A stretch of DNA of 64,000 nt, from positions 42,206,769 through 42,270,768 of the forward strand of contig CM047428.1 in NCBI GenBank assembly GCA_026168455.1, in the 5' to 3' direction. Source of the DNA: Theocolax elegans (lineage: Eukaryota > Arthropoda > Insecta > Hymenoptera > Cerocephalidae). Of the stretch, positions 12,827 through 64,000 are shown in pieces. A program made the translations under genes and the position numbers. Position 1 is the first letter of the stretch; the number at the start of each line of letters is the position of its first letter. Below the pieces are notes generated by a model, which had not been told where the DNA came from, did not search any database, and saw nothing but the letters and a program-made list of their open reading frames with translations.

Positions 12827-13104
12827 ATACATATAATTTTATTGAGTGTTTCTGTATTTCTTTGTTTGTAATGTTTGATTATTTATTTAATTTATTTAAT
12901 TTAATTAAATTATTGAATTTTTAATTATTAACTGTTTTTAAATTAAAATGAAGAAGAGATAAAAGTGTTACTTAGAATACTTTATCTAGCTTCTATGAGT
13001 ATTCTGTCAAGTAATTATTTAATCTTGTTGTTATCTTTATAAGTAAATAATGTGATATACTTAAAATTGTAGGTAAGTAGTGAGATTCAGGGGCAACCTA
13101 TAGT

Positions 13105-21701: not shown

Positions 21702-21849
21702 TTTATAGCTGTAAGATTCTGTCCGTTTAATTCTATGTTAAAGAAGTGACGTGGATCGATGCCGGGTATTTGCTGTATTAGGGAATTATTTGCTGCTACA
21801 TGGGAGGGTATTGACCCTTTTGGGTGTTTGGGTGAGAAAATACGGGTCT

Positions 21850-31070: not shown

Positions 31071-32367
31071 ACTCGATGGTGGCTTTCGCGGACGACGTGG
31101 CGCTAGTGGTGGTCGCAAAGAGTGTCGAAGAGATCGAATATCTCGGAGACGTCTCTATAGAAGTAGTCGCCACTTGGTTGAGAGACCACGGACTTAGTCT
31201 GGCGGCGGAAAAAACGGAGGCGGTGCTCATCTCTCGCACAAAAAAGGAGAGGACCGCCACCTTCACGGTAGGTAAAGAACGGATACGGTCGGTGAAAACG
31301 TTGAAGTATTTAGGGGTCACACTAGACGCGCGGCTGTCGTTCAAACACCATCTCGCGAACGCGGGCTCAAAGGCGGCAAAGGTGGCCCGTGCGCTGGCGG
31401 GCATCATGCCCAACATCGGGGGACCCCAGCAACCGCGAAGGTCTCTCCTTGCCTCGGTGGTGAGCTCCGTAATTTTATACGGAGCTCCTATCTGGGCTGA
31501 TGCCCTGAACAGGCACAAGAGCTTTGGTGCTCCGTGTCAGAGAGCCTGCAGGATAGCTGCGCTAAGGGTGGCCCGGGCGTACCGAACCGTATCTGACATT
31601 GCGCTCTCGGTGATCGCGGGGACCGCCCCCTTCGACCTCCTGGCAGCCGAGAGAGCTGAAAGACACCGTGAGGGTGGGCGACGCGTAGAAGAGAATCGCT
31701 GCCATAACCGATGGTCATTGCGGACCGTAGAGGAGTGGCAGCGGAGATGGGACTCAGCCAGGGACGGCTGCTGGACCTACCGCATCATTCCGCGGATCCA
31801 GGAGTGGGCGAGTAGGAAACACGGCTTCGTCAGTTTCCAGCTTACTCAGGTGCTGACCGGGCACGGATGCTTCCGTAGCTACCTATTTCGTATAGGGGTC
31901 TACGGCAGCGCAGAGTGCCCGGCTTGTCCAGGGGTGGACGAAGACGTGGAACACGTCCTCCTATGGTGTCCTCGTTTCAGGGAGGAACGGGACCTGTTTC
32001 AAGTCACTTGGAGCGGTCCCCTCACCCCTGAGGGCATCGGGGCGTGCCTGCTTGACTCCCAGGAGGGATGGAACGCGGTAGTGACCCTCTGTACGTCCGT
32101 AGTGGACAGGCTGGGTCTCATCAGAAGAGAAGAGGAGAGAGGAGTTGCGATGGCAGCGGTAGTGGGCTAGTGTAGCCGTTGCCTCCCCCCGCGAAGTAAT
32201 GCCTTGCGGCGGCTCCCGCGGGGGAATAAATGTAAGAAAAGAGGTGGAGTTTTAGTGGGTATGCCTATCGACATCCTTCGGTAGGAGAGTCCCACACACG
32301 GGGAGTCTCGCATGGCTCCAGTCATGGTGCATTAAGCATTTCTCCACCTCTTCGGAAAAAAAAAAAA
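31070..32367 (+). mobile_element. R1-clade LINE, copy 2, inserted in (CA)n
   Basis: A 5'-truncated insertion that starts inside RT, just before block C. It has a full 3' UTR (32171-32355) and a poly-A tail (32356-32367), with (CA)n on both sides. AC-rich microsatellites are known targets of some R1-clade families (Waldo and Mino types). Confidence 0.85.
31076..32170 (+). pseudogene. R1-clade RT C-terminal fragment (5'-truncated)
   Basis: There are 364 open codons with no stop: FADD box (31085-31096), thumb region and the C-terminal CCHC zinc motif CPACPGVDEDVEHVLLWC (about 31917-31970). The apparent ATG at 31076 is internal to the RT, so this is a dead 5' truncation and not a start. It is colinear with copy 1 from 325 onward, with a few substitutions. 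Confidence 0.85.
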
Positions 32368-39782: not shown

Positions 39783-40538
39783 ACACACACACACCCACCC
39801 ACACACACCCACGCATGCTTGCACTCACGCATGCACACATACGCACACATGTGCGCACGCACTACACACGCAGAGTAGGATGTTCTCGTCAAGTCAAGAA
39901 CCGTCTTAAATTCTAGCCAATAAACTTAATAAGAAAACGCACGACAAAAAAATAAATTAATTATACAACGATGTAACCAAGTCTGATTGGTTAAGAAGAA
40001 CCAAAGCTCCACCCAAACCCTTGATATAAATAGGGATGTCGCGCCGGGTGTCGGAGCTCTTGCACCTTAGTCTTTCCTTTAGTAAGGTAAATTTGTATTC
40101 AAAAACAACGTGTAAACTTAACGCGAAATAAAGCGAGAGAATCGAAAGTTATTTGCTCAGTCTCTGTAAATCATTACACACCTGTCATTTTTGTATCCCT
40201 TTAAATTCCGGCTAGTCTATACCGCATTCATGTTGTATGAGAGCGGCTGCGCCTAAGTTCAACGAGAGCGAGAGAGACGGCAGAGCAGTTGCAGCCACCG
40301 GTTAGCTGTAGATCTCCCGTTCGATTAAGGTAGGTTATTTTCCTTACCTCGCCTTCCCTCATTGTTGCACCTCTGACTCACCCATGCACATATATTTCGG
40401 AAGGGTCTATGACCTGTGCTATAACGAGGGACATTGCCACCCATCCTTGACGCTATACGCGTACTAAAACGGGAAACCTCTATTTCAATTTAAATTCATT
40501 TCCTTTTATTTTTCTTCTTTACGTCTACCCACGTAACA
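39783..40538 (+). mobile_element. Lone LTR of the errantivirus-like element
   Basis: Homologous, in opposite orientation, to the LTR at 52336-53098: AGTAGGATGT(T/C)CTCGTC, the TATA region, CCCCGTTTTAGTACGCGTAT and the end ACGTAACA all match. It holds TATAAATAG (40025-40033) and AATAAA (40127-40132), and ends at 40538. Its first part is AC-rich and joins the tail of R1-clade copy 3, so the R1-clade element probably inserted in the LTR's own AC repeat. Internal genes are absent. Confidence 0.7.
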
Positions 40539-41360
40539 TTTACAACAATTATTTTTTACTTATTTGGTACACAACAATTAACATACATTTGAAATAGAGA
40601 TTTTTGTAAATTTAGTACATACTTTGTACCATCTTTATACAAATCTTATACCAATTTCATGTTAAATCAGTCTGAATTTTGCGCTTATTTAGAACCATAA
40701 ATTCGGACTTTTGTGGTAAGAATTTTATACACATTTTGTACGAATTTTGTACTAGTTTTGTGCTGATTTAGTTCTGAATTCAAGCGCTGATATTGTACAA
40801 AATTCTTACTATTTTTTCTAATAGGGAATATCTTTTTACAAGTTTGATTAAAAATAAGTTTTTTGCAACTCTGCTGCTTTAGGCATGTTACACTTGCGCT
40901 TCAGCAGAAATATACAGGAAGTCGGAAACAGACAAGTTGTGGTTCAGCACAATCGCAATCGCGCAATGTGTGCTACCAGGGTAACTATTAATATCGGCGT
41001 TTACAACAAAAAATGATTTACGCGATAAAGTCTATTTTAATCAGTTCCGGAATCACAACGTTTTGGGCCTTATAAAGGCATGAAAGTAGGTCACACTAGT
41101 TTTTATGTGGATTTCTAGGAATAGAGGGTATTTGAGTGAGAAGCAGGAATAGTGGATAGTTTCTAATTTTTTTGGATGATGCATCTCGCAAAGAAACAAA
41201 TGAGTCAGAAAGGAATTGAGGAGATAATATTATTTTGCTAATTCAATTCAAACTTTTTCATTACAGATATCATCATCGTGATATGATGTAAGTGCAATTA
41301 CTTATATTTTATATACACACTTTATCATTTTAATGTAAATTTATAAATTTTTTTAATTTT
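40539..41360. other. Gene-free stretch with GTAC-rich repeats
   Basis: At 40600-40820 TTTTGTAC and GTACNAA motifs recur in both orientations; a similar GTAC-rich stretch lies at 30770-30950. No gene is recognised. Confidence 0.4.
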
Positions 41361-44271: not shown

Positions 44272-44633
44272 ATATATAAGCAATGGGTTACAACTGAGAT
44301 CAGGAATCTGATCAAAGCTAGAAACTTCCCTACTAGCACACAACATTGTGGCAACGTTGTGGCAACGTTGTTTTGACAACGTTACAACGTTGTTATAAAA
44401 GTTGTTGAAACGTTGGAGAAACGTTGCTACAACGTGGGATATGTCCGCTAAAATTTTTGTAAGTTGCTGCGATAGGTGGAAATAACGTTGTAACAACATT
44501 TGAGCAACGATGAAAATGCCTTTTACAAATGTATTTCATATAAAAATTTAAAATATGTCCTGGGCAAGCTAAAAAATACATTTTTAAATCCACAATATTT
44601 TAATTAATAAATAAAAATATTTCCCATCCGCGG

Positions 44634-44706
44634 GAGTTGAACCTCGGATCTTCAGTTCCGAAGGCTTACTCTCTACCAACTGAGCTATTTTGTTGTTCCT
44701 GTCATT
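44634..44706 (-). pseudogene. tRNA-like sequence in the left arm
   Basis: The minus strand has a perfect box A (TAGCTCAGTTGG) and a box B (GGTTCAACTCC) at normal spacing, with an anticodon-arm-like CTTCGGAACTGAAG. Acceptor pairing is poor. Probably a tRNA relic or Pol III promoter. Confidence 0.5.
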
Positions 44707-44784
44707 AAATTAACTTTAGGTTATTAATTTCGGAGCATATTTTGATAGTAGTTTATAACCAAAAGTTAATTTAATGACAGGAAT

Positions 44785-44860
44785 AACAAAATAGCTTAGT
44801 TGGTAGAGAGTAAGCCTCTGGATCTAAAGATCCTAGGTTCAATTCCCGCGGGTTGAAAAT
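44785..44860 (+). pseudogene. tRNA-like sequence in the right arm
   Basis: Box A TAGCTTAGTTGG and box B GGTTCAATTCC are present, with CCCGCGGG at the 3' side. It is the inverted partner of 44634-44706, with differences in the anticodon region (GGATCTAAAGATCC). Confidence 0.5.
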
Positions 44861-45139
44861 ATTTTTTAATTTTTTTTTTTTAAATGTATTTTTTCGCTTG
44901 TCCAGGACATTTTTTAAATTTTTATATGAAATACATTTGTAAAAGGCATTTTCAACGTTGCTCAAACGTTATCACAATGTTATTTCCACCTATCGCGGCA
45001 ACTTACATAAATCTTAGCGGACATATCCCACGTTGTAGCAACGTTGCTCCAGCGTTTCAACAACTTTTATAACAATTTTGTAACGTTGTCAAAACAACGT
45101 TGCCACAACGTTGCTGCAACGTTGTGTGCTAGTAGGGTT

Positions 45140-47723: not shown

Positions 47724-49121
47724 ATGGCGTCAGGAGGTGAAGAGCCTCCTGACAACGACGAAGAAGTTTTTTTATAAATGTCATCCAAAAAGTAAAGTTA
47801 AAGTAGTTATTTGTTTAATATGTGAAAGTATTTATCACAAAAGTGATTATGTGAGAATAAAAAGTGGTATTACATTAAGCAGTTCACTAATAATATGTCC
47901 GGAACATAAAGGACTAAACTTAACCTCAAAAAAATCAAATGAAGCAGCCTTGAGTGAAACAGCAAAGTATATTATAGCACAAATTAAATTATTACAAAGA
48001 ACGCAGATACGAGAAGAATATCTAAATGATATAATAAACGAAACGAACAATATTGATTGCAATATTAATGATGAGCAGACTGGAACTGAAACTTTAAGAA
48101 TTGAAAACACCTTACTGAAACAATTAGTGGCAGAAATGAATGATAAGAATCAATTATTAAAAAGTGCTTTAGAAAAGGAGAATTCAAACAAGATAGAATT
48201 TAAAAAACAAACATATTCACAAGTTGTAAATAATGTACCACCTAAGCCAAACAAACTTCCTAAACTAATAGTTAAAAAGAAAAGGAAAGAAGATACTTTT
48301 GATCTAAAAAAACATGTAAATCACTATATGATAAAAAAGAAATCAATTCAGACAAAAAATATATTTATGAAAAGTGATGATGAAATTATAATTGATTATA
48401 TGAATGAAACAAGTATTACAGAAGCTGAAAAGATATTAAAAGAAAAATTATCTAGTTTATGTGAAGTTAAAAAAGAAGAGTTATTAAAACCCAAAGTGAA
48501 AATTATTGGTATACAGAATATAGAAAAAATGGATAAATTGTCTTTTGAAAATGATATAAATGAAAGGAATTTTAAAGATTTCTCAACTGGCTGTAAAGTA
48601 TTGCATAGCTATGTAAATGAAAAATTAAAACAAGAAAGTTTAATAGTTGAAGTTACAAATGAAATATATAAAAAATAAGAGAAAATAACTATAAAGTGTT
48701 CGTTGGTTTTCAATACTGTAAAGTATACGATATAATAAATACAAGACCATGTTTGAAGTGTGGAAGATTTGGTCATAATAGTTACAAGTGCTTAAATGAA
48801 AAAGTTTGTTTAAAGTGTTCAGGTCATCATAATACAATTGAATGTACACAAACAGATAATCTAAATTGTGTAAATTGTACGTTTCATAACCAAAAATATA
48901 AAATGAATTATGACTGCAAACACGTGGTTAATGATAGCATGTGCTGCCAAGTGTTGAAAAATAGAATCAAGAAGGAATTAGGAAACACGGATTATCCTAT
49001 GAGTCCGATAATACCAAGATATATCGGTAATATAGAGATCTTTCAAAATGTTACTAAGAAGAAAAGTATTTTGAAATCAAGAACATTAACATCGATTTCA
49101 TCATTGACTTCTAATAAATAA
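47724..49121 (+). pseudogene. LINE ORF1: zinc finger N-terminus, CCHC knuckles, two frameshifts
   Basis: ATG 47724 (or 47712) starts MASGGEEPPDNDEEV and meets a stop after a run of seven T (about 47767-47773). The main frame, already open across that run, has a PHD-like start (YKC..., CLICESIYH...ICPEH), a coiled coil and a K-rich middle, and ends at 48678 after an A run. The third frame (to 49121) carries knuckles CLKCGRFGHNSYKC and CLKCSGHHNTIEC. Read as one gene it is about 465 codons. It would package the element RNA. Confidence 0.75.
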
Positions 49122-49159
49122 TATTTAAGTAAATTTAAGAAATTCTAAATAAGAAAAAG

Positions 49160-51984
49160 ATGGATAACTTTAATATTATTGATAACATAATTAATTGTAA
49201 CGTATTAAAAGAAATTATCGTCAGCGATATCGACACTCTTAACAAATTTGCCAATTCAAATAAGAATTTTATACTTTATGTTAATATACGAAGTTTGAAT
49301 GCTAATTTCAATAAATTGAAAATTTTGATTAATCGTCTTGAAATTAAACCATTTATGGTCATTTGCGTAGAAACTTGGTCACTTCAATATTATAAATATT
49401 TTAGTTTAAAAGGTTACAAAATTTATTATAACAATAGTCAAATTAATAGAGCAGATGGAGTTGTTGTTTATATGGCTGAAGATATAACTGAGAATACAGA
49501 CATTATTCAAATAGATAATTTAAGAATGTTGAATACAAACATAACCTCTAATCATGAAAAAACCATCGAAATCACTTCTTTATATAGATCGCATGATATT
49601 CATAAAGTAGAATTCTTAATGAGTATAAAAGAACTATTAAAATTAAAGAGAAATGTTGCTAATCATATTATTGTTGGAGATTTCAATATAGACATCTCTA
49701 GTCATGATAACATTAGTCAGGAATTTTTAAATAATTTTCTTGAATATGGGTACATACCAAGTTTTCAAACTGGAACAAGATTAGCAAATACTAACACAAT
49801 GGGTTCATGTATAGATAACTTCCTTATTAAAAATAGTAATGTAAATGTTAAGACGGTTAAATTAACTGATTCATTTACGGATCACTTTCCATTATTTTTA
49901 TCAATAAAAAATATAAAACATAGTGGGAACTATAAAATGCGATCAAAAATTTGTTATGATAAACTTAATAAAATTGCTAAAAAACTTAATTGGAATCAGA
50001 TATTATTAATGAAAGATCCATCATTGGCAATTAATTGTTTGATTGATAATATAAAGGAATGTATTAATAGTGCAACATTTAGAATTAATAATAAAAAATC
50101 AGATAAATTGAAACCAAGAAAATCTTGGATTACTAAGGGAATTATTGTTTCATGTAATAGAAAAGAAATGCTTTATAGAATTTGGATGATGGATGTAAAT
50201 AATTTTGATAACAGGATGGAATACAAAAATTATGATAAAGTGCTAAACAGAGTAATTAAAGATGCAAAAATTAAATATGAATATGATGTGATTAAAAAAG
50301 CTATTAATAAACCAAAAAATTTATGGAATATTGTAAATCAAAAACTAGGTAAAAATACTAAAAAACAAGAGAAAATTACTGCTATCCTTGATAAATATAA
50401 AAATAGAATAACGAATACAGAGGATATTGCTAATGTTATGAATAATTACTTTACTGACATTGGTATTGAATTGAGAAATAAAATTCTTGAAATTGATAGT
50501 GTCGATATCCGGTTGCCTGATTTCAATAACAAAACTATATTTATGATTCCGACAGATCCGATAGAAGTTTATAATATAATAAATGATTTTGAAATAAAAA
50601 ATGGTGGTTCGGATAAAATCGACACTAGAACATTGAAGTCACTAATTAAATATATTTTGGATCCATTAGTTCACATTTTTAATTTATGCATAGAAAAATC
50701 TGTTTGGCCTGAATCACTTAAAAACGCAATGATTATACCAATTCATAAAAATGGTAGTAAGAAGAAAATTGAAAATTATAGACCAATTTCACTAATTTCT
50801 AATTTAGCAAAAATTTTAGAAAAGATAATATATATAAGGATCTGTAAATTTTTCAAAGAGTGTAACATATTCTCAGAGAATCAATTTGGATTTATACAAA
50901 ATAGAGGCACTAATGATGCCCTACAGAAAATAACCAATAAAATTTATAATAACTTGGACAACAGTAAACCTTTGGCTATAGCATTTCTAGACTTGGCGAA
51001 GGCTTTTGATACGGTAGATCATAACATATTACTGAATAAACTTTACAATTATGGAATTAGAGGTAATGCACATAAATTAATGTTTTCATATCTTACTAAT
51101 AGACAGCAGATAGTAAGAATTGATGATACTGTAAGTCATAATAATATTGTTAAAACAGGCGTTCCTCAAGGAACTATACTTGGACCTTTGCTTTTTATAA
51201 TATATGTAAACGACATGTTAAAAGAAAATATAATCTCATATGCAGATGATACAGCATTAATTGTTACCGAAGATACTTGGGAAAAAGTTAAAAATAAGAT
51301 GAATATTGAATTAAACTGGATTGCAAATTGGTTAGCCTTAAACAAGTTATCTTTAAATATAGAAAAGTCAACATATATTACATTTGGAAATTATATAGAT
51401 AGCGTTCCAGATTATGAAAATGATAATTATGATATCCAAATTAATAACAATAAGCTAAAAAGAGTGAAAAATACCAAATATCTAGGATTAATATTTGATT
51501 ATAGAATGAATTGGTCTTTACATATAGAATATTTAGTTAATAAAACTAAGTACCTATAATATTCATTTTTCATAAACTTGCAAATTATATGAATATAACA
51601 ACACTTAAAATGTTATATTATGCACTGTTCAATAGTGTTATTAGTTATGGTATTATAGCATGGGGTGGTGCGTATATGAATAGTATAAGTTTGCTGCATA
51701 ATTTACAGAAAAAAATATTAAAAATAATAAATAAAAATAAATTTATAACTAAAGATTACCCGTTAAATATAGAACAATTATATGCGTTAAATTGTTTATC
51801 ATATCATTATAATAGTTTAAGTAATCTGTTTATGTCTTCGAACAGTATAACTAGAAATAAGAATCTACCTATTCCAAGATTCAAAAAAACTGTTAGCAAA
51901 AAAAATAGTTATATCAAAGCTATAGGTTTGTTTAATATGCTACCAATTAGTCTAAAAGAATTAAATAAAAAAATAAAAAGATAA
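49160..51984 (+). pseudogene. LINE ORF2: endonuclease plus reverse transcriptase, one frameshift
   Basis: ATG 49160 opens 799 codons. Endonuclease: LYVNIRSLNANF, CVETW (Glu), IIVGDFNIDI (about residue 173) and TDHFPLF. RT: NYRPISLISNLAKILEKI, AIAFLDLAKAFDTVDHN (block A, about residue 607), TGVPQGTILGPLLF, SYADDTALIV (YADD at 51239-51250) and TKYLGLIFD. A stop at 51557-51559 follows a frameshift, and the thumb continues in another frame to 51984. All catalytic residues are present, so only this frameshift blocks a full protein of about 940 residues. It does target-primed reverse transcription. Confidence 0.85.
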
Positions 51985-52303
51985 AATTGAAAGACTGGAT
52001 AGTTAATAATATTTAAAAAATCTATACAAATTTTATTTATAAATTGAATCTTTATTATGATTGTTTTGTTTAATGTTGCCTTAGTGATTTTATGAGTTAG
52101 TAGCCTCTTTATGGATGTTATATAGTATATAGTGAAAGAATTTAACTATGTCATTTTAGTATGTAAGTATATTATGTAATTTTAGTATATAAGTCTTAGA
52201 TACTTTAGTATCTTGCCAGTTCCACCAACAGATATGTGCATTATATCTCTGTGGGGAAATCTATGTAATTCTAAGGAATTCTATGTATTTTCTGATACTG
52301 GTA

Positions 52304-52326
52304 AATAAATAAATAAATAAATAAAT
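52304..52326. repeat. (TAAA)n LINE tail
   Basis: Five to six TAAA units mark the LINE 3' end. Confidence 0.85.
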
Positions 52327-52335
52327 AATAACTTT

Positions 52336-53098
52336 TGTTACGTCCTAGGGTAGACGTAACGTAGAAAAATTAAATAGACTGAATTTAAATTAAAAATAGA
52401 AGTTCCCCGTTTTAGTACGCGTATAGCGTCAAGGATGGGTGGCAATTCTCCTCGGTATAGCACAGGTCATAGTCCCTTCCGAAATTTACGTGCATGGGTA
52501 AGCCCGAGGTGCAACAATGAGTGAAGGCGAGGAAAGGAAAACAACCAACCTTATCGGGCGGGAGATCTACAGTTGACCGGTGGCTGCAACTGCTCGGCTG
52601 TCTTTCTCGCTCTCGTTGATCCTCGATACAGAGACTCCCTTACAATAGAAATGCGGTATAGACTAATTTGGATTTTAAAGGGAATAGGAAAAAGACTGGT
52701 GTTTGAAGGTTTAAAGATACTGAACAATGACTTTCGGTATTCTTGCTTTATTTCGCGTTAAGATTTGGATACAGGAGTTTACCTTACTTGAGAAAGGACT
52801 AAAGAGCAAGAGCGTACACCCCTGCGCGACATCCCTATTTATATCAAGGGTTTGGGGTGGAGTTTTGGTTCCTCTTGACCAATCAAATATTGTACATTTA
52901 CTTAATTAATTTATTCTTTGTCATGCGTGACCTAATTAAGTTATTGGCTAGAATTTTTCAAGGCGGTTCCTGTCTTTGACGAGGACATCCTACTTTACGT
53001 ATTAAATATGTGCGCACGTATGTGCGTATGTGTGTGTGCGTATGTGTGTGTGTATGTGTACGCGCATGTGTGTACGTTGCGTCTATCATGACGCGACA
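52336..53098 (-). repeat. 3' LTR of the errantivirus-like element
   Basis: In element sense it starts TGTCGCGTC at 53098 and ends CGTAACA at 52336 (TG...CA), 763 bp. It contains a (CA)n-rich stretch near its start (about 52985-53085), a TATA box (TATAAATAG, 52835-52843) and AATAAA (52747-52752). A second copy lies at 39783-40538. Confidence 0.8.
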
Positions 53099-53109
53099 CC
53101 TCTCCCCTT
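53099..53109 (-). promoter_or_regulatory. Polypurine tract
   Basis: AAGGGGAGAGG on the minus strand directly precedes the LTR's TGTCGCG, the standard position for the plus-strand primer. Confidence 0.75.
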
Positions 53110-53492
53110 AGAGAAGTTTAACGCCAGGCGTAAACGTCCACACGTTTGTTGTCTTGTTTGTTTTTTGTTTGTTTGTTGTTTTTTTTTGTTTATTTGTTTG
53201 TTTATTTTTTTGTTTGTTGTTTTTTTTGTTTGTTTATTATTTATTTATTTATTCATTTTTTTTTTTTTTTTCTTAAAAACTAGATATTACAATTATCGCT
53301 ACATAAATCGGTATATATATATATATATATATTATTGTATTTTGTTTATAAAAACATTTATGCATATGAATATATTTTTTTATTTTTCTTTCATTTGTGC
53401 ATTTATTCTAGTAAATCTAAAAAGAGGAAGAAGGAGAGAAATGAGAATAAACATGAGGAAGGAAAAGCTAAAGGAAAAAAATCATGCATTTG
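53110..53492. other. Low-complexity T/G-rich stretch
   Basis: (TTTG)n and T runs at 53150-53270, (TA)n at about 53311-53330. It is untranslated sequence between the last ORF and the polypurine tract. Confidence 0.5.
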
Positions 53493-54155
53493 TCAATACT
53501 CTTGTCCAGCTATCCTTCTTTGTCTTCTGAGGAGGTGGTATACTTCCTCCTTGCATGAGTCACAGACGTGGAGTGATAAGTCTCCGTATTCCCAGATGCA
53601 CCAACAATTCAATCCTTGGTATCTGGGGATGTCGAATCGGCCAATGAACTCGCATCGCGGGCAATAATGCCGCGTGTTCTTCACCCTCAAACCGCATTCC
53701 ACGCAACGAGCCGGTCGTTCGACTTCTTCCGTGCTGCCGTAATTTAAGAGGGATAATCCCTCTAGGTTTAGATCGCTGTCCCAATGGTTTGTTACTCCTG
53801 GCTCCAGTAATCCGTCCATTACCTTTTCCAGAAAACTACGGTACTTCTGCCTGTGGTACCGTACCGTATTTGGATCCAAATCATTGCAGATCCTCTCTTG
53901 TACATGTTGTGTATGCCACCATTGGCTGGCTATTCTCTCATCAGCAGTGTATGCTGGGTAGTGGTGTCCGGCTATTCCTATCCGGGCACGAGTGGTTCGT
54001 CGTACTTGACCGTCTCTCATTATGTATACCCATAAAGAAAAATATTTTCTTAGAAACTGCCACAGGACTGTCGTTTTTCTTAAAGCACGTCGTTCCGTCA
54101 TCCATCCCACTGACGAATCGAGTTCTATTTCCATATCCCAGTTGTCGTTGCTCAT
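53493..54155 (-). CDS. Zinc-ribbon protein of unknown function
   Basis: A 220-codon intact ORF from ATG 54155. The N-terminal two thirds are W/R-rich (for example SQWWHTQHVQERIC). The C-terminal part has paired cysteines: C151-x2-C154 with C165-x2-C168, and C184-x-C186 with C198-x2-C201, forming one or two zinc ribbons. I do not recognise the family. It is the last gene before the 3' LTR, where complex retroviruses keep accessory genes; a regulatory or nucleic-acid-binding role is a guess. Confidence 0.65.
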   Translation of the reverse strand: MSNDNWDMEIELDSSVGWMTERRALRKTTVLWQFLRKYFSLWVYIMRDGQVRRTTRARIGIAGHHYPAYTADERIASQWWHTQHVQERICNDLDPNTVRYHRQKYRSFLEKVMDGLLEPGVTNHWDSDLNLEGLSLLNYGSTEEVERPARCVECGLRVKNTRHYCPRCEFIGRFDIPRYQGLNCWCIWEYGDLSLHVCDSCKEEVYHLLRRQRRIAGQEY

Positions 54156-54519
54156 CTTGGTGTGTGAGGGTTGACGTGTGGCCGTGTTGTTGCTACAAGT
54201 AAGAATAGATTGTCAAGCGTGAAACCCCCCTATTTATAGGCTGGTACTGTTGGATTTTATGTTTTCTCCACCCCCGTGACTTAATTATGATTCAGGGAAA
54301 GCCATGGATTGGATAAAAAGAAATAGATAAAATCAAGGGTTTTTTTTTATAATCTACATCCTATTCATATACATATATTTACTTATTGCGCAAGTTCGAA
54401 AGTTATTTTAATTTATTTATAAACAAATATTTATATTTAAATGATAAGCGAGCATACTGTTTACATTATGTATTTTATTATAATAAGTAATTGTTAATTA
54501 TAAGTCATTTTTTAATGCC
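54156..54519. other. Intergenic stretch in the element
   Basis: AT-rich; contains CTATTTATAG (54229-54238), which on the minus strand reads CTATAAATAG, a TATA-like sequence about 75 bp upstream of ATG 54155. No coding signal. Confidence 0.4.
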
Positions 54520-56280
54520 TTAAACATTGTTACTTGGTTCAGTTTTCTCGGATAAAACTGGCGTGTTCGGAGGTGGTTCTGGTTCATACGTCTTGGGTGG
54601 TGTTCTCGGAGTTGCATATACGTGTTCTCGAGGTAAGAAATTCCATTGTATTGTCGGATCAACTGGTCGCATTGGGACGTACTCTACTTTGTCTTTTCTT
54701 GATTTCCTAATACATTTTTGGAAAATATATCGACATAGTATTAAGCATCCGGCAAAAAGCATTAGTATAATAACCATTCCATGTAAGTAAGCATCAGTTA
54801 TTTGATTTTCAATTTTAACATTAATAGTTTTATCCGGTTTTAAATCGCTCGGAAGGTTTTTTCCTGCTCCGATCAACTGCAATGGTGGTAAATAGTACGT
54901 GTCCTTTTCTCTCACCAGCAGCTCTGAAGCGTAGTAGATGTTATCGTGAACCTTAAAGTGGCAGCCCGCTGAGAGGGAAATCGTTCCTGCTTGTTGAAAA
55001 GTGTATGTCTCCTCGAATCCTGGACAAAATACATTTACGAGTGTAGGCTTTGCGACTGAGTAAACATAGTGTCTTGGATGAGCAGTTTTAATGATGTATA
55101 AGTTCTTGCCTTTCATAAAATTAATTCTACATGAACTAAAAGTTGCATAGTCTTGTTCCAGTAATAATTTGCTTTCACACTCTCGTTGGAGATGCACAGG
55201 GTTTTCCCTTACGCATATATAATTCCTTTGTAATTTAATGCATCTCGACAGCTGTGTTGTACTTAAAAAGGTGTGTTTTTCCCCGTTGGGAAGAGAGGCT
55301 ATAAAATCGTCCCTGGGTTGAATGTACGCTGCATTATGGATTAAATCCCCTTGTTGGAAAACTGGCACTGGTAGCATTTTGTACAAAGTGTGCGTTTCCT
55401 TTTCTACCATTGGTATTATTATTTGCATAATTATGTGATCTTTATAAATTGTTAATTCTCTTGGAGCGAACTCGGCAATTATCGCTGCATTTATTTGTTC
55501 AATTTTTACCGGACTCTTGGTTTCGGATACTTTTTCTATCATTTTTAAAATAATTCTTAAATTTCTTGTAGCGCCGGAAAACTTTGTTGTTGACAATAAA
55601 CTTGTTATCGTGTTGGCTACATCCAAGTAACTATCCAAATTTTGTAATGCTAGATTGATTGTTTCCTCAACTCCTGATTTGTCAATATCTATTACTCCTT
55701 TTTCTCCTTGTAGTATTTGTAATATCGCTTCCAGTTGCTTCATTTCTACAGACATTTTTTCTAAAGTTTGCATGATTTCATTATCTATGTATGCCTTTGC
55801 TGTACCTCTTCCTAACATTGCTTCTCGAGAGTGATGTCTCATTTGCGTAATAATTGATACTATAGCTAGTGATGAATTTTTTGTAAATGCGTTTTCGTCC
55901 CCCCCCCCCTTATCTAAAACTTCGTCCCCTGACGAATATGAAGTCGCTGAAGTGATATAAGCGTCTCTTATTCTAGAGAACTCGCGCATTTTTTCTTGTA
56001 ATAAATAAATTCTGCTTATCGTTACCGCGTCCTTCAGCCTTGTATACGTGTCGGATTGTACAATATCTTGTATTATTTTTGTAAAATTTTCTTGGATTCC
56101 AAAAACTTTCTGCGTGTCAATTGTAGTTATTATACACCATTCTTGTTTAATAAAGTCTATTTCTTGCAATCGATTAAAAATGATGCCGGGGTTATTTCGC
56201 TCTGTTACAATTGCCTTATTTTGAGTCGTCGCAATCACAACGTGAAACACGATGAAAAATGCGCACATAATCTTCTCCAT
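54520..56280 (-). CDS. Envelope-like type I membrane glycoprotein, possibly errantivirus/baculovirus-F type
   Basis: A 586-codon intact ORF. It has an N-terminal signal peptide (residues about 1-20, hydrophobic FFIVFHVVIATT), a long helical ectodomain half (about 150-270), a cysteine-bearing second half (LSRCIKLQRNYICVREN then CESKLL, about 340-375), one transmembrane segment (about 499-520, MVIILMLFAGCLILC) and a 66-residue Pro-rich cytoplasmic tail. Layout and the C..YIC..C pattern resemble F-like Env proteins of gypsy-type errantiviruses, which would fuse membranes. I see no clear furin site. Family assignment is moderate; the membrane topology is clear. Confidence 0.6.
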   Translation of the reverse strand: MEKIMCAFFIVFHVVIATTQNKAIVTERNNPGIIFNRLQEIDFIKQEWCIITTIDTQKVFGIQENFTKIIQDIVQSDTYTRLKDAVTISRIYLLQEKMREFSRIRDAYITSATSYSSGDEVLDKGGGDENAFTKNSSLAIVSIITQMRHHSREAMLGRGTAKAYIDNEIMQTLEKMSVEMKQLEAILQILQGEKGVIDIDKSGVEETINLALQNLDSYLDVANTITSLLSTTKFSGATRNLRIILKMIEKVSETKSPVKIEQINAAIIAEFAPRELTIYKDHIIMQIIIPMVEKETHTLYKMLPVPVFQQGDLIHNAAYIQPRDDFIASLPNGEKHTFLSTTQLSRCIKLQRNYICVRENPVHLQRECESKLLLEQDYATFSSCRINFMKGKNLYIIKTAHPRHYVYSVAKPTLVNVFCPGFEETYTFQQAGTISLSAGCHFKVHDNIYYASELLVREKDTYYLPPLQLIGAGKNLPSDLKPDKTINVKIENQITDAYLHGMVIILMLFAGCLILCRYIFQKCIRKSRKDKVEYVPMRPVDPTIQWNFLPREHVYATPRTPPKTYEPEPPPNTPVLSEKTEPSNNV

Positions 56281-56500
56281 TTTGTCTGTAACATAATAAT
56301 AAAAAACTTTATTATGTCCAACATATTGTTCCTTTATTTATGTGCGTTTGTATATATATATATATTTTTTTTAACATATTTTTCCTATGCGTTCCAGTTT
56401 ATCGTATTATGTTAACTACACATATTTTTATGTTTCTCTGAGATTTATTTCAATATGCGCTTAATATCATCGGTATATGCATAGTTTCTCTCATTCAGCT
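56281..56500. other. AT-rich spacer
   Basis: Short AT-rich spacer with a TATATATA run; nothing recognised. Confidence 0.4.
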
Positions 56501-56974
56501 TCATTTTCTTTTTTCTTGAATCTTTGGATTTGTTGATTCCGCTCTACTGGTTGCTGTATGTTGGTCGATTCCTTTAGTGCTTCGTTTACATAATACTTTC
56601 GTGCTCTCTTCGAATAGAATACTATTTTGTTTATTTACTCGCGTTGGAGTCAAGAAATTCCATTTAAGTTGTTCTCGAGGTTGTAATTGCGATGTTATAC
56701 ATTCGTGTAGTCCGCCATTTACGCGCGTTAGTACATATCCATTGCATTTAACTTCTTGCTCGATAAGACAACTTTTGAAAGGAATTGGGAGTCCGCAACA
56801 AAAACATTTGAGATCAGTAAAAGTACAAATTAATTCGCGTATCGTTCGTGTAGCACTTAATGAAAACCGAATTTTTTCTAGGTGTGATAATTTCGTCGTA
56901 TAACAATAATGACACAGGTATGTATTATGACAAAAATAGCAAAGTCGCTCCCAATTTCTTACTAAAACTGACAT
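56501..56974 (-). CDS. Cysteine-rich small protein, unknown
   Basis: A 157-codon intact ORF. Eleven cysteines lie in the first 95 residues: C12-x2-C15, C21-x2-C24, C50, C57-x-C59-C60, C69, C77, C92, suggesting two zinc-binding modules. The C-terminal 50 residues are polar and basic. A KWNFLTP block resembles QWNFLPR in the tail of the glycoprotein at 54520-56280, which could mean a shared exon or duplicated piece. Not recognised; possibly an accessory or regulatory protein. Confidence 0.6.
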   Translation of the reverse strand: MSVLVRNWERLCYFCHNTYLCHYCYTTKLSHLEKIRFSLSATRTIRELICTFTDLKCFCCGLPIPFKSCLIEQEVKCNGYVLTRVNGGLHECITSQLQPREQLKWNFLTPTRVNKQNSILFEESTKVLCKRSTKGIDQHTATSRAESTNPKIQEKRK

Positions 56975-57042
56975 TTTTTTTTATTAATATAGTATACTGT
57001 TTAAACTTATAGAATATTCCTATACTGTCTAAATATAGGTAT

Positions 57043-57077
<35 letters not shown>

Positions 57078-57449
57078 TTAATTCTTAATTAAAATTTTAT
57101 ATCGATAGGCAAACCACAAACAGTAGCAAGTAAATAAATAATGAACTATATATATATATATATATATATCTATATATATTACGTTCCCTTATTTTACGTA
57201 ATATTAATTTTTAGTCCTAAGATTAATTGAGTCTTTTGTCCCTAAAGTACTTAGACAGATTTGCTAATAATATTTCATTAGTATTTATCGCAAAAGGTTC
57301 CTATAATCTTGCGTAGAAAAGAACTGGATGCGGCAGAATTGGCCTGTAGCATGAAAGGTTTCGATTTGCCCATCGATCTACACCATCGTCCATTCAATTC
57401 TGTATGGATAAAAAAAAAGTCGATTATTTATTTTATGTATTTAAATTAA
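56975..57449. other. Spacer with (AT)n microsatellites
   Basis: (TA)n at 57048-57074 and 57147-57170. No ORF of note is recognised. Confidence 0.5.
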
Positions 57450-57845
57450 TTACTGTAGAATAATCGAACATCGTTTTCTAAACATTCTCAAGTCATCTAA
57501 ATGATATTGAATGTTGCGCGCATGACGAATTGCATGGTCCAGATTTGTGTAGATTTCCGGTTTATAAATGTATCTTTTGACTTCCGGTCGAAGCCCCTTT
57601 AAAAATGCCCTAAGTGCTAGATTTTCGCGTTGTAGGCATGAATCGGTTATTTCCCTGCATTCTTCTTGTGCTATTTCTCCCAATGTTTTATAATTATGTA
57701 ACATTCTTTCCATTCGTGCGCCGAATTGGAAAGTGCTTTCGTTTCGTTTTTGCGATGCCCATGTAATTTGAATTCTCAAATTAATCAAAGCGCTCATAAC
57801 ATTATATCTTTGTACTTCTGCTAATGTATATATTTTTTTTTCCAT
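57450..57845 (-). CDS. Small gag-like (capsid C-terminal type) ORF
   Basis: A 131-codon intact ORF. The central helices and the block FLKGLRPEVKRYI (residues about 81-93), followed by LDHAIRHARNI, resemble the end of a retrotransposon capsid domain, where F-x-x-G-L-R and an A-rich helix recur. No zinc knuckle follows. Gag belongs upstream of pol, so its position between two glycoprotein genes is odd: a duplicated gag piece, a remnant of a nested element, or a restriction-factor-like decoy. Assignment is by motif only. Confidence 0.5.
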   Translation of the reverse strand: MEKKIYTLAEVQRYNVMSALINLRIQITWASQKRNESTFQFGARMERMLHNYKTLGEIAQEECREITDSCLQRENLALRAFLKGLRPEVKRYIYKPEIYTNLDHAIRHARNIQYHLDDLRMFRKRCSIILQ

Positions 57846-57927
57846 TTTACAATTTTTTTATTTTATAAATGACACCTTTTATTTTTTTTGTTTAAAAAAA
57901 AAAAACCTGTAGTTGAAATAGCAAAAT
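57846..57927. other. Short spacer with poly-A/T runs
   Basis: Contains poly-A and poly-T runs only. Confidence 0.4.
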
Positions 57928-60044
57928 TTACACGTTATCGAATTTGCGTTTTCTGCGTGGCGGTAGAGAAGATATATCCGGTTCTATAAATATTTGCGGA
58001 TATAGATTATTTTGAGCTCCGCAACTTACTATTTTACCCCCTGTTGACTCATTGACTCTTACCACAGTGGGTTGTGCCGTGTAGGTGCTAGGTTCGGGCG
58101 GGGCGAAAGGTACGTGCGAGTCCGAAAAATGTTCCGCTCGAGTGCCCGCTACTTCCGAAGGCGTAGCTTGTTCTTCCCTCTTTTTCCTTGCGTCACGCGT
58201 TGGTTTATCCCTTGTGACGTGCAGCAATAATTGAGTGACTGAATTCCAAATGGCTCCTATAATATGAAGTGACCACCCATATAAACTATACAAAGCATAA
58301 CCATGTAAAATGGAATCAACTAAAAATTTTATTAAACGCCCTATCATAAAAATGCTTATAATAGCTGCGCTAAATGATCCGAAAGTACATAATTGCCCCC
58401 AAATTTTCATCCAAGTGTTATTGGCTAATTCTGTCAACGCTTCTTCATCGAATAATCGGGTAATAGACATACCGTTTTTATCTACCTTTTTCCCGGTCAT
58501 TCCTAATGCAATTGTGTTCAACATGGCTGGCCTTTCTACGGGAAACATAAGGTGTTGTCTTAGTGCTTGGATCTCCGCTTGGGTGTAAATTCCGCTTTTT
58601 GCAAGTTCGGTTGGCTCTGTGTAATTCCAGTTATTTTTAGTAGTTGGTTTTAAAATGTCTGGTTTTCTCCCTTAGTTGTTCCTCTTGGTAAAATAGTAAA
58701 CCAATCTTCCCCTAGTAAGAACATAGGAGGAATCAGAACACTGCAGGCAGCTTCGGTTCCATATTGTTTTAAAATATGTGTCCTTGGCGTCAAAAAATAA
58801 TCTTTGCCGTCTTTGGTTACTGGTAACTCTTGGTAACATTTTGTAGTTTCTCTTCGTTGAACGTCAATTTGTACGCACTTCATTAAGTGCACAACTTCTC
58901 CGGCTACCAAGCCCATGTAACCACTTTTTTTCATGATTTGATATGCAAAAACGTCAGGTGCTGTTGCTGCAATGCTTAATGCATTTGATATAACTCTTCT
59001 TTCCAATTCGCATTTTTGCAAAATTAAATTGCGATATAATGTTTTTAATTGTCCTTTAATATGTTTTTCTACGTAAACGAATTTAGAGTTTACGTATGCA
59101 AAAATGTCGAGATTATCTATTGACGGATTTCTTACGGCTTGGAAGGTTTCTGTTATTGGTCCTTCTAAAAAAAATAATTTTGGGTGCTCTGTTCTAATTA
59201 ATTCATACGAACACACCGGAATTTGTCCTAAAATCGTAAAAGCAAAGGTTATCTCGCTCGATTCCATTACATATACCGGATGTTGCTCATTGCCTTGTTC
59301 TACAACTTTAATAACATAACCCGCGTATAATTCTGAGTATTTACTGCGTTCGCATGCCTGTACTGGTAACCTATCCCAAAAGGCGTACCCTGCTTCTACG
59401 TCAATACAATCATCTTGATTAAACTTACAGCGCGTACCAGATCGTAAAATAACCTCGTTAGCATTTAAGTTTACCGGTGCATAGTAATCCCTTAAAGTAA
59501 TGGTAACATAGCCCGTGACTATAGTATCGTCAAAAATACCATATGGATCCGCGTACATTCCTGCGTTACTACAATCTCCTGCTTGATCTACCCTTCCAGC
59601 AAACGTCATTGGGTGGACAATCGATCCGTTCAGTTTTAAGTTACTTATTACTTCGTCTCGTACTCGGTGTGCGCGGTATACATGCATTCTATTACATTCT
59701 TCCCTAGAAATTTCATGAATAAACTGAACCTCCCCTCTGTTTTTGTCTTTTCTATGCGAAAACGCGCCGCAGTATGTTACCGATCTTTTTATTTCTACTT
59801 TACAAAGCTTTACATGAGTGCTTGAAAAATCATTTAATTGCAATAGTCGTACATAAATTTTTGTTGTATTTACTACCGGTTCAGGTATGTCGCATTCTCC
59901 TACGTGAATTAACGAAAATGTTGTTAAATTTGAGACGTGCTGCGAACAGTCGTACCCTATGATTGCGTTAATATAGATTTTCCTTGGTATAATAGTTGTG
60001 AGATAAATGATGGCCAATAGTGTTTTACAACTCATCTGCAACAT
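57928..60044 (-). pseudogene. Chuvirus-type glycoprotein captured by the LTR element, one frameshift
   Basis: The N-terminal frame runs from ATG 60044 to a stop at 58650 (464 codons). A signal peptide (residues about 8-28) leads a Cys-rich ectodomain, and an NIA-type ISNALSIAATAP block sits at about 350. The C-terminal part lies in another frame (to 57928), open from about 58660, before its first ATG at 58548. It has FPVERPAMLNTIALG, a hydrophobic segment (AAIISIFMIGRLIKFLV) and the LHGYALYSLYGW block, then a polar tail ending in a basic RRKRK. These blocks match my recognition of glycoproteins of chuviruses (Jingchuvirales), which are common as endogenous copies in ants and in some insect LTR elements. 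One small frameshift at about 58650-58670 breaks it. It begins 240 bp after pol, the env position. Confidence 0.75.
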
Positions 60045-60283
60045 TAAATAAGTTCATGAAAGCGTTCTTTTTTTTTTTATTTATAGAACCGTTGCAAAAA
60101 TGCTTAGTTTTATCTTCCCGTTTTTTTTTTAAATTATCAGAATCTATTGACTGATTCTTTATTGATTTCCTTAGCATTTTTGCATTTGTGAAAATACATA
60201 TCATTGTTAGAGTTTTGCTATATACATGGCTTATTTTTTTTTATTTACATTCGTCATGCTCTTAAATTTAAATACCAACAAGC

Positions 60284-63200
60284 TTATTCGGTTTCAATAT
60301 GGGATTTGCGTAAGCGATTTATGTGCACTATTTTATTTTTATTTCCATTTATTTGAATTTTTACATTCCCATTGTCGGAAACGTCTAGAACTAAAAATGG
60401 ACCCGAGTATTGATCGTCAAATTTCTTAGGTTTTGGCCCCTTTTGCAGCCATACGTAATCACCGATTTGTAGTGTTAAAACGTTTACCTTACGATCGTAG
60501 TATTTCTTGGCTCGAAGTTTTGCCTTTAAAAGGTTTTGTTGGGCTATGTTTTGTAGACTGTTTAGGCGCTTGACTAAATCTTCAAGATAACCATCGTATG
60601 TAGGCGCCAGGTCTTCTGTTTCGACCGGTGCGTTCGAGGGTGTGCGTGCCAATCGGCCGAACACGAGTTCAAACGGCGTATACCATGTAGACTCACTAAT
60701 TCCCGTGTTAAAATTAAAGGTAGCCAAATCCAGGTAATCGTCCCAATCTGTTCGATTACTATGTACAAAAAATTTCAAGTATTCAATGAGACTTGAGTGC
60801 GATCGCTCAAGTCCACCGTTTGATTGTGGGTGGAACGCCGTGGTTTTAGTTTGTTTAATTCTAAATATTTTTGCTATTCTTTTCATTAATTTACTCATGA
60901 AATTCGTACCTTGATCCGTAAGGATTATTCGAGGTGCGTCAAATATGCATATGACTTTTCTTATTAAACCATTCGCTACATCCATGGCCGAAATTCGCGC
61001 CAAGGGCTCAGCTAATGCGAATTTAGTTAATAAGTCTTGGAAGGTTAAAATGTACTCGTTTCCCCGATTGGTTTTGCATAGAGGACCAACAATATCCATA
61101 CTTATTCGGTCCATAGCGTGCGTTCCCGAGTTTGTAATAACCATTGGAGCTCTAGTTTTAACCCTAACCAATTTTTTTAATTGGCAATTCAAACATTTTC
61201 TTATAAAATCTTGTATCTCTATCTTTAAATTCTCCCAGTTATAATTTTGTTTAATACGGTTATAGGTTTTTGTGACACCTCTATGTCCTCCTATAGCCGA
61301 ATAATGAGCTTCTTCTATAATCGGAATTCGATCGTCTAGTGTCGGATATCGTATTAGACCTAAACAAACAATTAATTTTACCGTGCTTTGACTAAAAACT
61401 CCTTTTAGTTTTTCTAAATCTAACTCCCACTCTAAATTTTCAATTCTATCGGTTTTCGCTATACTTATTGATTTTATCTGTAATGTATCTAAAGTTAAAT
61501 ATAGATTTTCGCATAATAAATTTAGGTTATTATCAATTCCACTTAGCCCGATTAACGATTCTGTTCGTATCGGTAATGCTATATGAATTTTTGTATTTAC
61601 ATTTATCAAAACTGGTATTCCAACCTGCATTTCCTTGAATCTTGGTAATTTATTCTGTAATTTTAATTGCGAAGCCCCATCGTCGCATGGTTCTCCTGTT
61701 GTAGTAACAAAATACATATAATTGTCCTTACGCATAAATAATTTTTCTCTGCATGTAATAATTACTTGTTTATCGTTAATTTGATTAAATTGTTCTTCAT
61801 AGATCGACGTCTCTTCGTTTATTTGATCAGGACTGAATTGCGGATCGTTTTCAAGTAATGATTCATTAACATGATCAAGATCTTCGTGTAAGCGTAATCG
61901 CGCATTTTCCGAGTGAACGAGGGGTTCCGGCTCGAAAGTTTCCACCTCCGTATCGTCGTGCGTTCCTTCTCCACGGTCCGGTGATTGTTCGTTCGCTCGC
62001 CTCTCGTTTTTTCTTCCCCTTTGCGGGCGTAGAGCCTCTATCGCGTCTAAATATCGCTGGCCTACCTGGCGACCCGCCTTCGCTCTCGTGGTCATACCCC
62101 GCGGTGGTTCAACTAGGCTAGACTCGGGCTCATCACTTGCCGCTATTGCCTTGCTTCTCGTAATAACTAGGACCTTGTCTATGGGGTTTCTAGACAGTGC
62201 GTCTGCTACATTTAAACGACCCGGTCGGTATTTAATTTCGAAATCGTACTCCGCGAGCATAAGACGCCATCGCGTAACTCGTGAGTTCGGGTCCTTATGC
62301 GTTTGTAACCATACCAGTGGTTTATGATCTGTTATAAGATAAAATTTTCTTCCAAATAAATACGGTCGGAAATGCTTAATGCAAAATATTATTGCTAGTC
62401 CTTCTTTGTTACACGTGTCCCAACGTTTTTCAACATCCGAAAGAACTCGAGAGACGTATGCAACGGGTTGATCTTTCCCTATCTCACCCTGACTTAAGAC
62501 TCCAGCAATTACATATCCCGAAGCGTCGGTCGTTAGATTGAAAGTAATTTCGAAATTTGGAAAAATTAATACCGGTTTTTCGCATAAACTAATGCGTAAT
62601 GTCTCAAATGCCTTTTCTGTTTCTTCTGACCATTTAAATTGAACGTCCTTTTTTAATAAATCCGTTAAAGGTTTTGCAATTTTTGAAAATTGATAAATAA
62701 ATCTTCTATAGTATCCCGCTAAACCCAAAAATTGCTTGATATTTTTAGCATTTTGAGGGCGTGGAAATTTTCGTACAGCTTCAATTTTCCGCGAATCTGG
62801 TTTAATTCCTTCTGCACTAATAACATGACCTAAATATGTAACTGTTTTTTTAAAAAATTCACATTTCTCTGGTTGTAATTTTAAAACCGCTTTTCGCAAT
62901 CTAAGAAATAAATTCTCTAATCTTTAATATGCTCTTGTAGAGTCTCCGAATAACATATAATATCATCAATAAAGCAAAAAAGTTCTTTATTGATAAGTCC
63001 AGCGAGTGCAATTGAAAGTGCTCTTGAGAATGTAGCCGGCATTGTTCGTAGTCCAAAGCTTCCTCGGTTAAAATGGTACAAATCTCCGTTTGTAACAAAC
63101 GCGGTTTTGTGACGGTCTCGTTCGTCAATTTCTATTTGATGATACGAAGCCTTAAGATCAAAAGTTGAGAATTTTTTGATCCGCCCAATTTAATTTGCGA

Positions 63201-63600
63201 TAGTCGATCACCATTCTGTATTGCTTGCGTCCTTGTATGTCCTCTTTCTTAGGAACTAGAAAACAAGGGCTTGAGTACGATGAGGTAGATGGTTCGATAA
63301 TGCCGTCTTTTAATAAGTCTTGCACTTGTCTTGCTATTTCTTCTTTATGTACCGGAGGTAATCGGTATTGTTTTGAAGTTATTGGTACATCATCCGTTGT
63401 TGGGATTGTTAGTTTTAAAATATGTGTTGCTGTTAATTTTTCACCCTGAAGGTAAAAGATGTCGCTATATTTCTCAATTAATTTTTCTATTTCTTCTCTT
63501 TCATCAGTAGCCAAATGGTCAAGTCGTAGTAATGATTTTACCTTTTCCGCTCTCCCTTTTGGTATGACACATGCTAAGCGATAAACTTTATGACTACCTT
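60284..63600 (-). pseudogene. Ty3/Gypsy (errantivirus-like) pol, broken in RT
   Basis: From 63600 the minus strand reads a pre-RT region (LRLDHLATDEREEIEKL), RT entry (DGIIEPSTSSYSSP, VIDYRKLN), a deletion plus frameshift at about 63170-63180 removing the residues before the FSTFDLKASYHQ block, and the FIDD catalytic box (about 62965), with a stop and frame change at about 62900-62935. The last 871 codons (to 60284) are open: RNase H (TTDASGYV, TCNKEGL, ITDHKPL), a long charged linker, the integrase HHCC finger (HYSAIGGH...CLNCQ), the DDE core (SMDIVGPL, LTDQGTNF, GLERSH) and a GPF chromatin-side motif (SGPFLVLD). Integrase and RNase H look intact. No protease DTG/DSG is visible. Confidence 0.8.
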
Positions 63601-63625
63601 TTAGTTTCTTTCCGCCTTTTCCTTT

Positions 63626-63988
63626 TCAATTAATTCTTAATTTAAGTAAATCCTCTAATGTATCTTTAATAACATTTTTATGAGATTCTCCCCCAAAGGC
63701 ATGTAGTTTTACATAATTTCCTAATTTATTTAGATTTTCTCTTAATTCCTTTGAGTTATTTGTTGAGTTGTCATGATACTTTATTTCCATTAGTAGATTA
63801 CTTATTAACATTTCCATGTCTTGGTTATTATTCCACAGAATTCCATTATTTATTAAACCTTCCTCTAGAATTTTTTGTAACATGCGTGTCGAAATTAACA
63901 ACCTTTCTTCATCGAATTCGTTTGCGTCTACATTTTCATTTTGTGCTAATGCCTTTTTATTTTTTGTATTATTATCGAGACCTACCAT
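63626..63988 (-). CDS. Unidentified ORF at the window edge, possibly gag region
   Basis: 120 codons from ATG 63988, with the frame still open upstream to the window end, so it may be longer. It is rich in N, L and E and probably helical. There is no zinc knuckle and no aspartic-protease motif. Its position just before pol suggests gag, but I do not recognise it. Confidence 0.4.
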   Translation of the reverse strand: MVGLDNNTKNKKALAQNENVDANEFDEERLLISTRMLQKILEEGLINNGILWNNNQDMEMLISNLLMEIKYHDNSTNNSKELRENLNKLGNYVKLHAFGGESHKNVIKDTLEDLLKLRIN

Positions 63989-64000
63989 ATCTTTTCTCTT

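Follow-up and report, generated by a model that had tools for sequence, protein, structure and literature searches.

Can an insect Ty3/Gypsy element hold envelope genes of two families at once, or does such an arrangement point to two elements joined together? The question is raised by positions 52336–64000 of a 64,000-nucleotide stretch of the Theocolax elegans genome (GCA_026168455.1, contig CM047428.1, 42,206,769–42,270,768; hereafter the window), where a pol region, two unlike glycoprotein genes and three small open reading frames (ORFs) precede a polypurine tract and a long terminal repeat (LTR). Read on the minus strand from 64000 to 52336, the order is a 124-residue frame, a reverse transcriptase (RT) region, the remainder of pol, a chuvirus-type glycoprotein (G) in two pieces, a 131-residue ORF, a Cys-rich ORF, an F-type glycoprotein (F), a zinc-ribbon-like ORF, the polypurine tract and the LTR (Table 1). 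We read this as the 3′ portion of a single decayed Ty3/Gypsy (Metaviridae) provirus whose lineage would carry an extended accessory region behind pol, with a class III G, the 131-residue protein, the Cys-rich protein, the F-type glycoprotein, the zinc-ribbon protein, polypurine tract and LTR in that order, and give this reading a probability of roughly 0.58. Retroelements turn infectious by capturing envelope genes; if the reading is right, envelope genes of two families in one element would mean that capture can add and need not replace, and the locus would present an envelope switch caught in progress.

Table 1. Features of the element, its candidate RNA signals and the related LTR (window positions; aa, residues; nt, nucleotides)
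Feature	Positions	Strand	Basis
Open frame, 124 aa, leaving the window	63626–64000	-	ORF list; no Pfam match at E up to 10
RT region, broken by frame changes and a stop	62900–63514	-	Three-frame translation
Pol part: RNase H, H2C2, integrase core, p58_C	60284–62899	-	Pfam
Splice-acceptor-like site directly before the second ATG of G (60035)	near 60035	-	Rank 11 of 423
Chuvirus-type glycoprotein G, N-terminal piece	58650–60044	-	PF24664, 1.7e-151, profile 2–449 of 653
Chuvirus-type glycoprotein G, C-terminal piece with hydrophobic stretch	57928–58548	-	PF24664, 1.1e-38, profile 492–636 of 653
Splice-acceptor-like site, 61 nt before the 131-aa ORF	57906–57908	-	Rank 4 of 423
Helical ORF, 131 aa	57450–57845	-	ORF list
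Cys-rich ORF, 157 aa, 12 Cys	56501–56974	-	ORF list; no Pfam match at E up to 10
Splice-acceptor-like site, 5 nt before the F ORF	56285–56287	-	Rank 3 of 423
F-type membrane glycoprotein, 586 aa, uninterrupted	54520–56280	-	PF12259, 1e-11
TATA box TATAAATAGGG, possible internal promoter of the zinc-ribbon ORF, 83 nt before its ATG	54228–54238	-	Motif count
Splice-acceptor-like site, 37 nt before the zinc-ribbon ORF	54192–54194	-	Rank 14 of 423
Zinc-ribbon-like ORF, 220 aa; CxxC pairs at residues 151/154, 165/168, 198/201	53493–54155	-	ORF list; Pfam below cutoff
Polypurine tract AAGGGGAGAGG, 11 bases, abutting the LTR	53099–53109	-	Sequence
LTR, 763 bases, TGTCGCGTC...GACGTAACA; TATAAATAGGG at 52843 (5′ end, minus)	52336–53098	-	Sequence; ends set by eye and script
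Related LTR stretch outside the element	39827–40565	+	79% identical over 753 columns to 52336–53098

From the pol stop to the LTR there are 7,185 bases, whose minus strand holds exactly six ATG-initiated ORFs of at least 60 residues (586, 464, 220, 206, 157 and 131) and whose plus strand holds four, of 62–92 residues. Across 300 first-order Markov controls of this interval the longest ORF averaged 73 residues and reached 152 at most; none contained an ORF of 157 residues, and 2% contained one of at least 131. The frames of F, the Cys-rich ORF and the zinc-ribbon ORF stayed open over their full length in 0 of 2,000 Markov copies, and that of the 131-residue ORF in 1 of 2,000. Scored by a codon model whose training set was pol and G, the named frame came first for F, the 131-residue ORF and the zinc-ribbon ORF; the last scored negative in every frame, and for the Cys-rich ORF the named frame tied with another. 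An earlier sequence-only reading had placed a series of ORFs, one of them Cys-rich, on this strand after pol, with a polypurine tract and an LTR at the end. All are present: the ORFs are the six counted here, the Cys-rich one (157 residues, 12 Cys) is longer than any ORF of the controls, and the 11-base tract abuts the 763-base LTR.

The class of the element is given by its pol. The best PDB sequence match of the pol part is Ty3 Gag-Pol (1.1e-69), Pfam recognises the Metaviridae succession of RNase H, then H2C2 and integrase, and a GPF is readable close to the pol end; the GPF/Y motif at the integrase end is described as a hallmark of Metaviridae and some others (PMC12440569). Nothing indicates a BEL/Pao-type pol, the best PDB match being Ty3 and the Pfam domains those of the other Gypsy pol in the window. 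Placement in the Troyka lineage was considered and rejected, that lineage being described as encoding no envelope and as not observed in Hexapoda (PMC12440569). Residues 218–524 of the pol part (approximately 300), between RNase H and the integrase zinc domain, gave no Pfam match; the other Gypsy pol has fewer than 90 residues there. This copy is dead, and no activity is possible as it stands, because its RT is interrupted, G is split over two frames and no protease was recognised upstream within the window.

The two glycoproteins belong to different families. G matches Monjiviricetes_fusion (PF24664) over most of the profile, in two reading frames, and the chuvirus-type glycoprotein that had been proposed after pol is borne out by both pieces (1.7e-151 and 1.1e-38). 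Chuvirus glycoproteins have been termed type III fusion glycoproteins (PMC13172572). The claim of a second membrane glycoprotein also holds: the 586-residue ORF matches Baculo_F (PF12259; 1e-11, 44.6 bits against a cutoff of 24.1), and is hydrophobic at the N-terminus (1–19) and in one more stretch (494–524), which is followed by a tail of approximately 60 residues. It thereby belongs to the baculovirus/errantivirus F family, and an F-type envelope gene after pol is an errantivirus feature.

A further errantivirus feature, an envelope with furin site and fusion peptide, was not found in F. The furin consensus RX[KR]R is absent from the ORF, where RXXR occurs at 239 and 525 only, and the best match to the published fusion-peptide consensus (PMC6085415) covers 2 of 6 positions, a score that 500 of 500 shuffles equalled or bettered. 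Silkworm elements are likewise described as having neither furin site nor fusion peptide (PMC6085415). A mildly hydrophobic 12-mer begins at residue 136 of F, and may be a changed fusion peptide. The cleavage region of F, which we expect from the Pfam coordinates to lie near residues 110–135, is acidic and Gly-rich and includes a run of 11 G (55899–55909, minus strand). This run is a possible site of slippage or of an assembly length error.

The sequence-only reading had spoken of a gained second entry gene. Two glycoprotein families are indeed present, but an entry role for F is too strong a claim, with no RX[KR]R and a fusion-peptide match at shuffled level; for the same two reasons G, rather than the F-like protein, is the likelier membrane fusogen, and fusion would, from its family, fall to G. 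In group I baculoviruses an F-like protein without furin site is described beside GP64, which performs fusion (PMC4864199) and is a class III protein (PMC2288602). By analogy, the F-like protein here would resemble the non-fusing one kept beside GP64, and its job would more probably be attachment, budding or interference, the roles suggested for that baculovirus protein, than fusion. The likeness to group I alphabaculoviruses is one of working only, a class III fusogen being paired with an F relative that has no furin site (PMC4864199); they are large DNA viruses, unrelated to the element. If the interpretation is correct, it becomes testable whether F proteins retain a second job after takeover by a class III fusogen.

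The small ORFs are less readily named. The sequence-only reading had called the 131-residue ORF gag-like, and for this no support was obtained: nothing in Pfam matches it up to E 10, its best PDB sequence match is 0.45, and BLASTP against the other gag of the window gives 0.93. Its single-sequence model has a predicted local distance difference test score (pLDDT) of 56, and a Foldseek search with this model returned a best E of 0.71, with no capsid protein among the best 50 of 272 hits. On this evidence we do not accept the gag label as firm. The zinc-ribbon ORF fared better in part, since its 220 residues do contain three CxxC pairs, but the Pfam match lies below the cutoff (E 0.0014, 19.8 bits against 28.9); its structure model is unusable (pLDDT 31).

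Errantivirus env is described as coming from spliced RNA (PMC12992720). With acceptor sites scored by a hand-set matrix and 423 AG sites ranked, acceptor-like sites precede four of the five gene starts. A score of at least 7 within 70 nt of four of five starts has P of 0.0013 against all positions, 0.0054 against spacers and 0.0019 against 153 ATGs (20,000 draws each). Leaders beginning at the four sites contain no upstream ATG; a leader from 57399 to the Cys-rich ORF would contain five. Under such a scheme, the LTR would drive a full-length RNA for gag-pol and genomes, and a 5′-proximal donor, placed outside the window, would be spliced to the acceptors before the 3′ genes to give separate mRNAs.

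For the zinc-ribbon ORF a promoter of its own can be considered. Counted over both strands of the window, the motif TATAAATAGGG has three occurrences against 0.14 expected: one in the LTR (52843), one in the LTR copy (40025) and one in the spacer before the zinc-ribbon ORF (54238). CTCCACCCC and AATTARGTCACG, motifs picked post hoc, occur twice each, in the LTR and the same spacer, CTCCACCCC in opposite orientation. When 1,239 overlapping segments were ranked by exact words shared with 200 selected LTR bases, the spacer fell within the top four; two of these are the spacer itself, and two are one locus (1101–1350), which scores slightly higher. That locus lies inside an RT-matching ORF and shares exact words with the LTR promoter region much as the spacer does, there probably by chance. 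Looser TATA-like sites are about equally common on the other strand (6 versus 4). We rejected the spacer as a leftover piece of LTR and speak of shared motifs rather than of a copy, because alignment of the whole spacer to the LTR is not significant (P 0.157). Speculatively, the spacer could be a foamy-virus-like internal promoter, built like the LTR promoter, from which the zinc-ribbon protein would be made as a regulator. Foamy viruses, with their internal promoter and tas, are alike in working only, through the possible internal promoter before a small ORF beside the 3′ LTR (PMC7828637); the elements are unrelated, and promoter and regulator are here putative. If true, complex-retrovirus design would gain a new case, an insect element equipped with accessory genes and an internal promoter.

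Among known systems, the errantiviruses or insect endogenous retroviruses (gypsy, ZAM, Idefix), whose envelopes are described as F-type (PMC12992720), share with the element the Ty3-type pol, the F-family glycoprotein downstream, the acceptor-like site before F, the polypurine tract and the LTR. The element differs from them in the added chuvirus-type G and three small ORFs, in an F without furin or fusion-peptide consensus, and in the zinc-ribbon ORF between F and LTR. Anakin, described as a mosquito BEL/Pao element that acquired a chuvirus glycoprotein (PMC7642597), is alike in carrying such a glycoprotein after pol (here PF24664), whereas the present pol is Ty3-type and a second glycoprotein family is present. 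Some gypsy elements are reported to carry type III fusion glycoproteins (PMC13172572), and in Hymenoptera Gypsy fragments are described as flanking chuvirus glycoproteins, with no clear capture by Gypsy in that account (PMC10084718). These cases share the combination of Gypsy pol and class III glycoprotein, and differ in that no F-type gene was noted alongside (PMC13172572, PMC10084718). A literature search of limited depth found no description of an element with both a chuvirus-type G and an F-type gene. No relatives were found in a viral-contig collection for F, G, pol, the zinc-ribbon ORF, the Cys-rich ORF, the LTR pattern or a two-pol alignment, nor in a genome-contig collection for the LTR pattern or F; neither collection consists of insect genomes, and a scan with one protein reaches close relatives only, so the negatives say little. 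PHROGs gave nothing useful and Rfam no match.

The case for one element is made by the single polypurine tract and LTR, the six ORFs in tandem with no further one of 60 residues or more on their strand, the AT-rich spacers (16–30% GC throughout), the acceptor-like sites, the TATA form shared by the LTR and the zinc-ribbon spacer, the Pfam identities of pol, G and F, and the likeness in codon usage (0.74 between pol and the N-terminal piece of G, 0.80 between that piece and F, 0.64 between pol and F, 0.62 between pol and the Cys-rich ORF). An LTR, tail or target duplication between pol and 53493 had been named in advance as evidence against it; in a BLASTN comparison within the window the interval from pol to the LTR showed no further LTR, and no repeats flank the block there except AT-rich low-complexity ones. 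In the alternative, a Gypsy element that bears G and has lost its 3′ end would lie beside the 3′ end of an errantivirus-like element that bears F and has lost gag and pol. Each parent of this fusion or nest would once have been an ordinary one-envelope element, the small ORFs, F, the zinc-ribbon ORF and the LTR coming from the second. We consider this origin possible but doubtful. It agrees with the single envelope type per known element in published accounts (PMC12992720, PMC7642597), with the different composition of the zinc-ribbon ORF, with a region crowded with other retroelement pieces and, weakly, with ORFs that are intact on one side and broken on the other. Against it are the lack of a second LTR and of flanking repeats beyond AT-rich ones, spacers and codon usage that are similar on both sides, and pol–LTR spacers that hold no polypurine run; the six runs listed all lie in or near RT, pol, the C-terminal piece of G, and F. 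Quite improbable, in our view, is that some of the genes are solo insertions of endogenous viral fragments or captured host genes beside a Gypsy pol and LTR. Chuvirus-type glycoprotein insertions are described as abundant in ant genomes and as often Gypsy-flanked in Hymenoptera (PMC6540820, PMC10084718), and a cellular F-like protein is reported to exist in Drosophila, but the genes follow one another on one strand up to a polypurine tract and LTR, and most starts are preceded by acceptor-like sites, which argues otherwise.

Several observations nevertheless weigh against a single provirus. One copy was examined; the window holds its 3′ LTR only, and a 5′ LTR with an AAAG target duplication would fall beyond 64000. 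The lesions fall on the pol/G side and the LTR-side ORFs are intact (P 0.16, 0.085 and 0.046 for an assumed 3, 4 and 5 lesions). Codon likeness partly reflects AT-richness, as F scores 0.75 and the N-terminal piece of G 0.69 against an ORF of a long interspersed nuclear element (LINE); the zinc-ribbon ORF is an outlier in codon usage (0.26 to pol) and in GC content (47%), and in codon usage the 131-residue ORF stands closer to the other gag of the window (0.69) than pol does to it (0.53). When spacers were compared with the LTR, a single comparison in 24 (the spacer after G, reverse, against the LTR copy) gave P of 0.010, as chance might. As to splicing, the Cys-rich ORF has a weak acceptor-like site only (rank 41 of 423), the top-ranked site (57399) is near no gene start, and the matrix was set by hand after some sites had been seen, with the second ATG used for G. 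The sequence-only reading had left a choice between a complex retrovirus-like element and a nest of two; its two glycoprotein families stand and no second LTR was found, but its second entry gene was overstated and a single copy underlies the choice.

It is tempting to extend the single-provirus reading, tentatively and with the odds against it, to a complex insect endogenous retrovirus lineage in which a class III fusogen is joined by an F partner shorn of its fusion parts and by three accessory genes, one expressed from an internal promoter modelled on the LTR. Such a lineage would represent an independent complex-retrovirus plan, convergent on the GP64-plus-F arrangement of baculoviruses.

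The window abounds in retroelements, and the LTR family is represented in it more than once: the stretch at 39827–40565, the only other LTR-like one, is opposite in orientation to the LTR of the element. Its 5′ end disappears into a CA-rich repeat that follows a LINE-like stretch, and BLASTN found no internal sequence beside it that matches the element. A second Ty3/Gypsy element (18725–24306, minus strand) comprises gag (PF03732, CCHC) and pol (RT, RNase H, H2C2), the latter 39.6% identical to the pol of the element over 250 residues. A LINE (47737–51984, plus strand; ORFs 49160–51559 and 51589–51984) has an RT (PF00078, 1.4e-30) and an endonuclease-like match just below cutoff; a TAAA repeat follows it at 52302–52328, a few bases from the end of the LTR. 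RT-matching ORFs also occur on the plus strand at 112–1419 and 31076–32170, the latter just below the Pfam cutoff. A 31-base match joins 57422–57452 to 12877–12907, and a fold-back at 44328–45137 has 261-base arms, 92% complementary, with a second inverted pair inside.

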